NCBI RefSeq assembly: GCF_001742225.1 | Contig: NZ_CP017075.1 | Coordinates: forward strand, 1,984,001-2,048,000 | Reading direction: 5' to 3' | DNA length: 64,000 bases | From: Novosphingobium resinovorum | Lineage (GTDB): Bacteria > Pseudomonadota > Alphaproteobacteria > Sphingomonadales > Sphingomonadaceae | Shown: one piece after another, positions 22,275 to 40,490 of the stretch | Numbering within the stretch: position 1 is the stretch's first letter | Layout of the letters: every line of letters begins with the position of its first letter | Notes under the pieces: generated by a model | What the model was told of the DNA's origin: nothing | The model's database searches: none | Seen by the model: the letters and a program-made list of their open reading frames with translations, nothing else | Position numbers and translations under genes: made by a program

Positions 22275-23027
22275 TTATCCCTCCTTGGGATAGACGTCCC
22301 CGAGCACGCGGCGGAAATGCCCTTCGACCTGATCGTTGCAGGCGCAGGCACGGTTCTTCAGCCCTTCGCGGTCGAGCACCTCGATGCCGCCGCGACGGGT
22401 GCGCACCATGCCGTCGCGCTTGAAACGCTGCAGCACCCGGCTGGCATAGCTGCGGCCGATGCCCATCATCGAGGCGAGCTGCTCCTGCGTCATCGTCACG
22501 TCGTTGCGCCCGATCCGGTCGACGGCCGCCGAGAGCCACTTCGCCGCGCGCTGCTCGATCGTGTGGACGGCATTGCAGGCGATCGACTGGAACACCTGCG
22601 CCATCACGCAATCGGCATAGCGTGCGAAAAGATGCGCAATCGCGGGCGAGCGCTCCTTGGCCGCCTCGATATCTCGCGAGGCGATGCGCAGGAACACCCC
22701 GTCGTGCAGCACGTTGGCCCGCGCATAGGCCGGGAGCGAGCCGTGGCTGACGATCCCGCCCAGCGCCCCTTCGCGGCCCACGAGGATGGTTTCGACCGCC
22801 GTGCCGTCCTCCATCTCGACGAAGTAGGAACACATCGCGCCGCCGGTCGGAAAATAACAGTAATCGACGCTGTCGCCGGGCTGGTAGATGATTTCGCCCG
22901 ACTTCAACCGGCACTCGCCCAGCTTAGGCTCGATCAGCGCGAAGTCGTCCTGCCGCAGCGCCGTGAGCAGGTCGCTGCCGGCGATCGCGGCGGCGGAAAC
23001 CGGGCTTGTCTGCGGGATCGTGCTCAT
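22275..23027 (-). CDS. Crp/Fnr-family transcriptional regulator
   Basis: A 250-aa regulator with a cyclic-nucleotide-binding fold (YQPGDSVDYCYFPTGG, roughly residues 25-150) and a Crp-type winged helix (MTQEQLASMMGIGRSYASRV, about residues 175-215). No FNR-type Cys cluster is present, although CACND sits near the C-terminus. It ends about 150 nt from the phoX start and is divergent from bphO, so it could regulate either; the ligand is unknown. Confidence 0.9.
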   Translation of the reverse strand: MSTIPQTSPVSAAAIAGSDLLTALRQDDFALIEPKLGECRLKSGEIIYQPGDSVDYCYFPTGGAMCSYFVEMEDGTAVETILVGREGALGGIVSHGSLPAYARANVLHDGVFLRIASRDIEAAKERSPAIAHLFARYADCVMAQVFQSIACNAVHTIEQRAAKWLSAAVDRIGRNDVTMTQEQLASMMGIGRSYASRVLQRFKRDGMVRTRRGGIEVLDREGLKNRACACNDQVEGHFRRVLGDVYPKEG

Positions 23028-34868: not shown

Positions 34869-34894
34869 GGAACGCCCGGCCCCGGCGGCGCGTT
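34869..34894 (+). promoter_or_regulatory. EcfG-type promoter before the pyridoxamine-oxidase-like gene
   Basis: GGAAC (34869-34873), a 17-nt spacer and CGTT (34891-34894) match the stress sigma consensus exactly. The start site would be about 25 nt before the ATG at 34927. Confidence 0.75.
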
Positions 34895-36374: not shown

Positions 36375-37040
36375 TCAGGCAGCCACGCGCTGGGCGAGGC
36401 GAGCGGTGTCGGCATTGACGTTGGCGATCTTCACCAGTTCGCCGAAGAAGGCGTCGATCGCCTCGCCGCCAAGCACGAAGTTGTGGCGGAAGTCCGGCAG
36501 CTGGCCGGATTCGATGATCTTGGAGAGCATCGCGCGGGCGCGGCAGATGCGGCTCTTAACGGTGCCAAGCGCGATACCGCAGATATCGGCGATTTCCTCG
36601 TAGGAGAGGTTGCCGGCCGCTACGAGCACGAGGGCCTCGCGATAGGTTTCGGGAATGGCGGTCAGCGCGCGCAGGACGTCCGCCAGTTCGACGGCGCTTT
36701 CCTGGCTGGCTTCGGCGCGCAGGATGCGTTCCGCGGCCAGTTCGTCGTACTCGCCATGGAAGCGGGCGCGGCGGGCCTCGGAATAGAAGTGGTTGCGCAG
36801 GATGGTGAAGGTCCATGCCTTGAAGTTGGTGCCGGCGGCATAGCGCTCACGCGCCGCCCATGCCCGCAGCATGGCTTCCTGCGCCAGATCGTCGGCGCGG
36901 TCACGGCAGCCGCACAGACCGCGCGCGAATGCACGCAGGTGCGGCGCTACCTCTGCCAGCGCGCGGCGGAAATCACGGTCGCTGAGCGCGACCTTTTCGG
37001 GCTGGACCCCTTCGACGCCTGCTTCGACAACAGTCGACAT
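36375..37040 (-). CDS. ecfG: General stress response sigma factor EcfG
   Basis: A 221-aa ECF sigma factor. Region 2 reads LRAFARGLCGCRDRADDLAQ then ACTS-type NFKAWTFTILRNHFYSE; region 4 reads LSYEEIADICGIALGTVKSR. This is the EcfG/sigma-T subgroup controlled by PhyR-NepR partner switching. An AGAGGAGG site lies 8 nt before the ATG at 37040, so the longer open frame is not used; that stretch contains promoters instead. The gene is divergent from phyR. Its own EcfG-type promoter suggests autoregulation. Confidence 0.93.
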   Translation of the reverse strand: MSTVVEAGVEGVQPEKVALSDRDFRRALAEVAPHLRAFARGLCGCRDRADDLAQEAMLRAWAARERYAAGTNFKAWTFTILRNHFYSEARRARFHGEYDELAAERILRAEASQESAVELADVLRALTAIPETYREALVLVAAGNLSYEEIADICGIALGTVKSRICRARAMLSKIIESGQLPDFRHNFVLGGEAIDAFFGELVKIANVNADTARLAQRVAA

Positions 37041-37077: not shown

Positions 37078-37103
37078 AACGGCAGTGCGGCGAAAATAGT
37101 TCC
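37078..37103 (-). promoter_or_regulatory. EcfG-type promoter of ecfG
   Basis: The minus strand reads GGAAC (37103-37099), 17 nt, CGTT (37081-37078), a perfect match to the stress sigma consensus. The start site would be near 37071, giving a 30-nt leader with the AGAGGAGG site. Direct positive autoregulation of ecfG is implied. Confidence 0.8.
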
Positions 37104-37223
37104 CGGCAATGTCCTGAAATCGCCCATTTCGTTGCGGAAGCGAAAGAAATCAGCGCCAGACCGAAAAACTTCCCGAAAAACTTTGCCGTATTTCCGCAGG
37201 ATCGGCGGAACAATCATGGCCCA

Positions 37224-37318
37224 TAAAAATTGAGGCCCCCGTCCACTTGAGTGGGCGAGGGCCTCCGGGATCGGATCACCACCGGTTTGCGGGGGGGGTG
37301 GGGGAGCCAGTGGTGATA
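37224..37318 (-). ncRNA. Candidate EcfG-dependent small RNA, GsrN-like
   Basis: About 95 nt on the minus strand. A perfect EcfG promoter precedes it. The first hairpin pairs 37317-37307 with 37285-37275 (11 pairs, one G-U) and exposes a 21-nt loop that is almost all C (reads CTCCCCCACCCCCCCCGC), ideal for pairing with Shine-Dalgarno sequences. The second hairpin (37265-37259 with 37238-37232, inner CCAC/GTGG) is followed by TTTTT (37229-37225), an intrinsic terminator. Caulobacter GsrN, a sigma-T-dependent sRNA that acts through a C-rich loop on katG, has this layout; homology is inferred from architecture and position, not alignment. Confidence 0.75.
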
Positions 37319-37325
37319 TTGTGGG

Positions 37326-37350
37326 AACGTAGCGCCCCTTCGTTGGTTCC
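37326..37350 (-). promoter_or_regulatory. EcfG-type promoter of the small RNA
   Basis: The minus strand reads GGAAC (37350-37346), 16 nt, CGTT (37329-37326), a perfect consensus match. The predicted start is about 8 nt downstream, right at the foot of the C-loop hairpin. The box is part of a larger GGGAAC...GTTCCC palindrome, so the plus strand may also be weakly served. Confidence 0.78.
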
Positions 37351-37497
37351 CGAAAAAGCGTCTCACCGCAAAAAATTTTCCGGTTGCCCTATACGCCCGG
37401 CGGAGTCAGACAAACGACACCGGCCTTCAGGCGCAAAGGGCGCCCATCGACGTGCAATCGGGAAGCCAACTTCCCCCATAGGCCTTGAGGAACTTGA

Positions 37498-38289
37498 ATG
37501 TCCGTCTCTGATCAGATTGCGATCCAGCTGCCTTACCTGCGCCGCTACGCGCGCGCCCTCACCGGCTCGCAGCACTCGGGCGACGCCTATGTCCGCGCGA
37601 CGCTGGAAGCGGCCCTCGCCGACCGCTCGCTGCGCGATGCCATCGCCCGCAGCCGCGCCGCGCTGTATGAGGCCTTCACCCGCATCTGGTCGACCGGCCA
37701 TGTCGAGGAACCCGCGGGCGACATCGGCGGCGGGCACGAGCAGGCCGCGCAGGAGCGCCTCGCCGCCGTCGCGCCGACGCACCGCCAGGCCCTGCTGCTG
37801 ACCTCGGTGGAGGAATTCACGCGTGAGGAAACCGCGACGATCCTCGGCCTCGAGGTCGAGGAAGTCGATGCGCTGGTTTCCCAGGCGATTGCAGAGATCG
37901 AAGGGGAAAGCGCAACCCGCGTCCTCATCATCGAGGACGAGCCGCTGATCTCGATGCAGCTGGAAGGCCTGGTGACCGACCTTGGCCATACCGTCGTCGG
38001 CACCGCCGCCACGCACAAGCAGGCGATCGAAATCTTCGAGAAGCACCCCGCCGGCCTCGTCCTTGCCGATATTCAGCTGGCCGACGGCAGCTCGGGCATC
38101 GATGCGGTGGAAGACCTGCTCAAGTTCGGCGAAGTGCCGGTGATCTTCATCACCGCCTACCCGGAACGCCTGCTGACCGGCGAGCGGCCGGAGCCGACCT
38201 ACCTCGTGACCAAGCCGTTCCAGGAAACCACCGTGCGCGCAACGATTAGCCAGGCGCTGTTCTTCAACTCGACGCGCCCGCAGGCCTGA
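37498..38289 (+). CDS. phyR: Stress response regulator PhyR
   Basis: A 263-aa protein with the PhyR layout: an N-terminal sigma-like domain (IQLPYLRRYARALTGSQHSG; LTSVEEFTREETATILGLEV) and a C-terminal receiver (RVLIIEDEPLISMQLEGL, VLADIQLADGSSG, YLVTKPF). When phosphorylated, the sigma-like domain captures the anti-sigma factor NepR and frees EcfG. A GAGGAA site lies 5 nt before the ATG. It is divergent from ecfG across the regulatory gap. Confidence 0.96.
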   Translation: MSVSDQIAIQLPYLRRYARALTGSQHSGDAYVRATLEAALADRSLRDAIARSRAALYEAFTRIWSTGHVEEPAGDIGGGHEQAAQERLAAVAPTHRQALLLTSVEEFTREETATILGLEVEEVDALVSQAIAEIEGESATRVLIIEDEPLISMQLEGLVTDLGHTVVGTAATHKQAIEIFEKHPAGLVLADIQLADGSSGIDAVEDLLKFGEVPVIFITAYPERLLTGERPEPTYLVTKPFQETTVRATISQALFFNSTRPQA

Positions 38290-40336: not shown

Positions 40337-40349
40337 TCAAACCCGACGC

Positions 40350-40441
40350 TCCACTTCCTCCGCCCGTACTAACGGGTTCAGGTTCGACGGGTCTTGTGGA
40401 GCATACCCACAACTCTCAGCCACTTGCTGGCTCCCCGGGGA
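40350..40441 (-). promoter_or_regulatory. TPP riboswitch (THI element) of thiC
   Basis: On the minus strand the leader reads GGGGAGCC, GGCTGAGAG, then after a variable stem ACCCGTCGAACCTGA and a closing stem around CCCGTTAGTACGGGCGGAG. These are the conserved P2/J and P4-P5 elements of thiamine pyrophosphate riboswitches. It ends about 75 nt before the thiC ATG and should lower ThiC production when TPP is abundant. Confidence 0.95.
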
Positions 40442-40490
40442 CGGCGCAGTGATAGACGCGCATATCGGCGGGGTCTAGAGGCTTGAGCCC

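Follow-up and report, generated by a model that had tools for sequence, protein, structure and literature searches.

What does the gap between ecfG and phyR in Novosphingobium resinovorum encode, and what might it add to the general stress response (GSR)? We examined a 64,000-nt stretch (the window) of this Novosphingobium genome (6.9 Mb, five contigs), in which ecfG (36375-37040, minus) and phyR (37498-38289, plus) are separated by an intergenic gap of 457 bp. A first-pass annotation had read a small RNA (sRNA) gene on the minus strand of this gap, and we recovered each of its parts, namely the promoter, the 11-pair hairpin, the 21-nt C-rich loop, the second stem and the T-run, where it had been placed. 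The locus comprises the following features.

36375..37040, minus: EcfG-type sigma factor paralogue, EcfG2-like, without adjacent nepR
37078..37103, minus: second EcfG-type promoter, GGAAC-N17-CGTT, directly upstream of ecfG2
37225..37319, minus: predicted sRNA of ~95 nt, its ends placed from the promoter and the T-run
37225..37265, minus: hairpin 2 (37265-37232) and T5 (37229-37225), a probable intrinsic terminator
37266..37274, minus: conserved single-stranded linker CCGATCCCG, 9 nt
37275..37317, minus: hairpin 1, with arms 37317-37307 and 37285-37275 and C-rich loop 37306-37286
37326..37350, minus: EcfG-type sRNA promoter, GGAAC-N16-CGTT, with a -35 that recurs in all 68 of the wider-family loci we inspected
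37498..38289, plus: phyR, transcribed divergently from the sRNA; 358 bits against the PhyR family model

Promoter, fold and neighbouring genes

Hairpin 1 consists of 11 pairs, one of them U.G, and 15 of the 21 nt in its loop are C, while in hairpin 2 positions 37265-37251 pair with 37246-37232 through 14 pairs and one C.A mismatch. The predicted sRNA folds at -43.7 kcal/mol (z = -4.56), which none of 200 dinucleotide shuffles equaled. Within the 64-kb window, GGAAC-N16-CGTT occurs twice against 0.49 expected, a count that 12 of 100 shuffles reach, so that the motif alone is not significant; with spacers of 15-18 nt allowed, there are four perfect matches against 1.88 expected (6 of 100 shuffles reach four), located at the sRNA, upstream of ecfG, before a pyridoxamine-oxidase-like gene and at 22691. 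The third of these, at 34869-34894 (plus), matches GGAAC-N17-CGTT perfectly and sits directly before the pyridoxamine-oxidase-like gene (34927), which, judged by this motif, is likely a further EcfG target. Upstream of the sRNA -35 lies an AT-rich AAAATTTTTT-like tract (~37370-37380 in the window) that recurs at many relatives' loci and is perhaps an UP element. Elsewhere in the window, a TPP riboswitch match at 40337-40447 (minus; 54.9 bits, slightly above threshold) precedes a long minus-strand ORF.

The ecfG protein of the window is 100% identical to its counterpart in N. resinovorum VKM B-1172 and resembles the nepR-less ecfG2 of Sphingopyxis granuli TFA, as described in PMC7083833. NepR gave a single match in the genome, in an operon with another EcfG (ecfG1; G000:C1:2050409-2051021, G000 being the window's genome), ~29 kb from the sRNA locus and just beyond the window edge. 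With this nepR-linked paralogue sitting elsewhere, we rejected the view that the main EcfG is the one encoded in the window. The position of the sRNA between ecfG and phyR stands, but the ecfG concerned is the nepR-less paralogue and not the partner of nepR. As nepR exists with ecfG1 elsewhere and the local ecfG is a paralogue, the sRNA is no stand-in for nepR, and the earlier suggestion that it is the reason for the missing nepR was not borne out. Across the family, moreover, it is phyR that stays beside the sRNA.

Conservation and covariation in relatives

Using R1, a covariance model of the sRNA built without the promoter or the neighbouring genes, we found matches in 118 of 195 Novosphingobium genomes (101 of the 149 of good quality, the other 48 giving no match) and in 158 of 397 Sphingomonadaceae genomes (148 of the 360 of good quality), which span 44 of 96 genera. 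These counts include a few weak matches (E up to 7e-4). Conservation of the stems and the C-loop, the lack of which the first-pass annotation had named as fatal to its reading, is therefore present at the level of both genus and family. A second covariance model, R2, drawn over the order, matched 79 of 246 order genomes at E up to 0.001; 70 of these 79 score at least 66 bits and all 70 belong to the window's family, with the next match at 41 bits. In a class-wide search, nothing scored above 39.5 bits outside the Sphingomonadaceae, and we read the matches at or below this value in 10 genomes as chance, because of these scores and because none of four GSR query proteins was found in their ~3.1-kb loci. 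All searches over more than 40 genomes ran with stricter filters, at which some weak matches are lost.

We approached the same RNA from the side of ecfG by scanning named genomes for ecfG relatives and taking the best 80 of 180 loci, 38 of which carry, upstream of ecfG, the promoter with no more than one mismatch as well as a C-rich stretch that leads into these hairpins. The promoter/C-run scan itself gave 39 loci, of which L081 was spurious; adding L064, the degenerate L058 and L075 brings the sRNA carriers to 41 of the best 80, and the 39 that are left include some Henriciella loci checked by the promoter and C-run scan alone. Promoter and C-richness were selection criteria in this step and hence are no independent evidence there. 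The first alignment contains 42 sequences (39 named, two unnamed and the window), leaving out L081, L058 (a degenerate contig end), L075 and all further unnamed loci from the genus, which are in many cases near-duplicates of named ones.

Compensatory changes in the stems, looked for in these 42 copies, are present: both sides change at 17 of 26 pairs (6 of 11 in hairpin 1 and 11 of 15 model pairs in hairpin 2), with 95.7% of cells paired. Hairpin 1 shows clean double changes, from C-G to U-A in four sequences and, at the next pair, from A-U to G-C in four. None of 500 shuffles reaches any of five covariation measures, and scores fall sharply when the structure is slid, with the caveat that kinship among sequences can beat shuffles without any structure. 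Covariation of both stems as RNA speaks against the notion that the locus makes no functional RNA and instead holds a short ORF, a terminator by itself or a promoter that serves another purpose. A promoter motif alone could be chance, which would suit that notion, but the spacing between promoter and hairpin is fixed across many genera and the loop lengths keep no reading frame (modulo 3, they fall as 15, 18 and 9 of 42), so that the short ORF was rejected and the absence of a functional RNA appears extremely improbable.

Further support came from 68 loci that we inspected individually, comprising the best 29 family R1 matches besides the window's own and 39 picked from the lower-scoring genus and family matches. 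Although the motif alone could be chance, we take the promoter to be real because GGAAC stands at the right place in 68 of 68 of these loci, which were found with a model holding no promoter. Sixteen nucleotides past GGAAC, the -10 reads CATT in 50 of the 68, CGTT in 13 and another sequence (GGTT, AGTT, CGGT or CTTT) in five; this -10 is consistently off consensus, and as the adjacent phyR promoters mostly have CGTT, it is not certain that the CATT-type sRNA promoters use EcfG.

The divergent arrangement with phyR

A divergent phyR lies within ~1.6 kb of the sRNA at all 29 of the best-scoring loci inspected and at 38 of the 39 picked from lower scores (67 of 68), and was not found at L173. Because neither the promoter nor phyR is part of R1, the two provide independent support for the RNA, even if the loci are mutually related. 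Between phyR and the sRNA, 15 of the 19 loci looked at, for example L131, hold an ORF with a Crp/Fnr-like start, one of them Pfam-confirmed.

These wider-family loci also bear on whether the element serves chiefly as a structured 5' leader for ecfG2, transcribed from the upstream EcfG promoter through a weak terminator, with hairpins that control read-through or ecfG2 translation. Such a leader would fit the window and the Novosphingobium group, where ecfG2 lies directly downstream on the same strand and a weak U-run is common, with tails such as AAAGTTT in many copies and three T or fewer in the first 10 tail bases of 17 of 42. But an EcfG promoter that belongs to ecfG2 itself lies at 37103-37078, a GGAAC-N17-CGTT that is also found at most listed Novosphingobium loci, and among the 68 wider-family loci ecfG2 is in the expected place only at L128, L175 and L176. 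Of 62 loci examined with a crude ORF caller, 35 have the next downstream ORF on the opposite strand, 25 have it on the sRNA strand and two have none, and wider-family copies frequently end in long T-runs. We consider a main role as ecfG2 leader decidedly unlikely and regard the stand-alone sRNA as the better account of the locus.

The phyR side differs between groups. Among 49 wider-family loci where the start of phyR could be placed, 34 show a perfect GGAAC-N16/17-CGTT of phyR's own, and the divergent phyR-sRNA pair is for this reason probably co-regulated by EcfG in the wider family, as far as promoter motifs tell. In the Novosphingobium ecfG2 group, a consensus EcfG promoter on the phyR side was found in none of 42 copies; 31 of the 42 carry a GGAAC-N16 element past the sRNA terminator and facing phyR, with CTTT as the -10 in 20. 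This element could be a remote EcfG-type phyR promoter that runs antisense to the sRNA, and the window's copy lies at 37207-37231 (plus) with AATT as its -10. One can extend this to a bolder proposal, in which the sRNA would be a fixed post-transcriptional arm of the sphingomonad GSR, forming a divergent pair with phyR and having its own, non-katG targets, and in which the antisense phyR leader of the ecfG2 group would make a sense-antisense feedback device. We think this proposal rather unlikely as a whole, and its antisense part is weakest in the window because the -10 there reads AATT.

Candidate targets, likeness to GsrN and implications

Our preferred explanation, which we consider likely, is that the locus encodes an EcfG-driven, stand-alone, trans-acting sRNA of the GSR that works like Caulobacter GsrN. 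Under stress, PhyR would become active and EcfG would be freed from NepR; EcfG would then transcribe the ~95-nt RNA from its own promoter, with the hairpin terminator ending it. The rigid hairpin 1 would display the C-rich loop and the conserved linker would display AUCCC, and both could pair, probably with Hfq, with G-rich and often Shine-Dalgarno-like stretches of mRNAs, thereby altering the translation or stability of these messages. It is the combination of predicted EcfG-driven transcription, a stable C-rich 5' hairpin and a host that encodes Hfq that leads us to a trans-acting RNA pairing with G-rich mRNA. In the window's genome, outside the window, two Hfq-domain matches lie 240 bases apart (G000:C1:936138-936566, minus) in an open frame of 226 aa each, which suggests one protein with two Hfq domains.

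The target that the first-pass annotation took over from Caulobacter GsrN, katG, was not borne out. The gene has no match in G000 and was rejected as a target there. It is present in 42 of 59 genus genomes searched, and in 30 katG leaders of relatives no pairing z reached -2, in a test that used the window's loop throughout, mononucleotide shuffles and 240 nt around the protein-match start in place of a mapped leader, and that took in some genomes without an R1 match. Pairing with the leaders of nepR, ecfG2, phyR and response regulators was equaled by fractions of 0.31 to 0.79 of 200 dinucleotide shuffles. Exact 11-nt complements of the loop occur at 10 places in G000 (three overlap and one is the sRNA gene), with no clear leader site in a crude view of the ORFs, and at eight places in five relatives, five of them the sRNA gene, against 17 for the reversed pattern.

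That no mRNA target emerged from these pairing searches would also be expected if the sRNA bound a protein instead of mRNAs, serving an RNA-binding protein or the ribosome as decoy or scaffold, and the loop core, retained in 58 of 59 wider-family sequences, is near-invariant enough to fit one fixed partner. A fixed protein site should, however, be less tolerant of a loop that varies from 16 to 31 nt in length and is not the same in the Novosphingobium ecfG2 group as elsewhere, and GsrN acts through pairing according to PMC5869019. We judge protein binding to be improbable and retain pairing with mRNAs as the favored mode of action.

The same paper describes Caulobacter GsrN as an RNA of ~100 nt with a C-rich 5' loop, driven by sigma-T, usually located near the GSR locus and processed by cleavage into a 5' isoform 51 to 54 nt long. 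GsrN (Caulobacter crescentus, Caulobacteraceae) and the sphingomonad RNA thus have in common a sigma-EcfG promoter, a length of ~100 nt, a 5' hairpin that exposes a C-rich loop, further structure on the 3' side, and a position near the ecfG-nepR-phyR locus, for GsrN usually so by that account. By analogy, the conserved linker sits about where GsrN is cut and may be a processing site. The sphingomonad loop, in contrast, is longer and of other sequence, the gene is divergent from phyR and the host genome lacks katG. Sequence homology was not detected: with filters off, R2 gave at most 9.9 bits in the Brevundimonas locus L115, whose probable GsrN, deduced from published target sites, stood in for the C. 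crescentus sequence itself. At L115 an EcfG promoter precedes UUGCCCCCCAACUUGA, and we take the RNA as probable GsrN because UUGCCCCCCAACUUGA fits the target sites GUUGGGGGG and UCAAGUU given in PMC5869019.

In Tien et al. 2018, GsrN-like RNAs are recognized by features that include a near-consensus EcfG promoter just upstream, proximity to ecfG and phyR, and intergenic transcription that depends on the GSR sigma factor. Our locus shows the first two of these: the promoter at 37350-37326, with GGAAC in 68 of 68 relatives, and a position between ecfG2 and phyR, with phyR near in 67 of 68. On such grounds of promoter and GSR-locus position, that text (PMC5869019) proposes GsrN-like RNAs in Rhizobiaceae and Bradyrhizobiaceae, those of the Rhizobiaceae with an exposed C-rich loop too. 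The likeness to our RNA is thus one of description; these RNAs belong to other bacterial families and several have published transcripts in that account, whereas the sphingomonad RNA is a predicted one. SuhB of Sphingopyxis granuli TFA, compared by its description in PMC6563040, is likewise a trans-acting sphingomonad sRNA and Hfq-dependent, but it is 61 nt long, is controlled by growth rate and acts on thnR, with no general-stress link in the text examined.

Rfam 15 held no family at gathering threshold over the sRNA in the window, where an E-value setting gave sub-threshold chance matches, and nothing over it in six relatives' loci. Among the papers listed for GsrN, PMC5869019 alone names the RNA in its abstract. 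The openly accessible literature listed for sphingomonad or phyR-linked sRNAs gave no matching description by title or start of abstract, and the sphingomonad GSR papers examined for sRNA terms mention no such RNA. The expectation that a sphingomonad version had gone undescribed thus agrees with the literature searched, and the core of the first-pass annotation, an sRNA gene with an EcfG promoter, a C-rich 5' loop and a terminator, GsrN-like in plan, is supported by its conservation and covariation in relatives. On present evidence we place the RNA, by analogy, among the GsrN-like RNAs, as a sphingomonad form that would work like GsrN, without equating the two.

The same plan recurs with other sequences. 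At L110, L112 and L116 (Sphingopyxis- or Sphingorhabdus-like), an RNA just downstream of phyR and on its strand combines a perfect EcfG promoter with a C-rich loop, a strong terminator and a stem (for example CGCUGGC; the L112 copy was folded), and at L093 of Sphingobium abikonense an EcfG promoter is followed by a hairpin with UUGCCCCCCGCUUGA, upstream of an ecfG.

GsrN is the experimentally studied sRNA of the alphaproteobacterial GSR, and its main paper (Tien et al. 2018, PMC5869019) found no apparent gsrN-like gene in the one Erythrobacter examined, Erythrobacter litoralis. The presence in 44 of the 96 sampled Sphingomonadaceae genera of a structure-supported RNA that follows this plan makes a missing layer of the stress response directly testable in this family, and the turnover of stem and loop sequences around one plan would reveal which features of such an sRNA are kept by selection.
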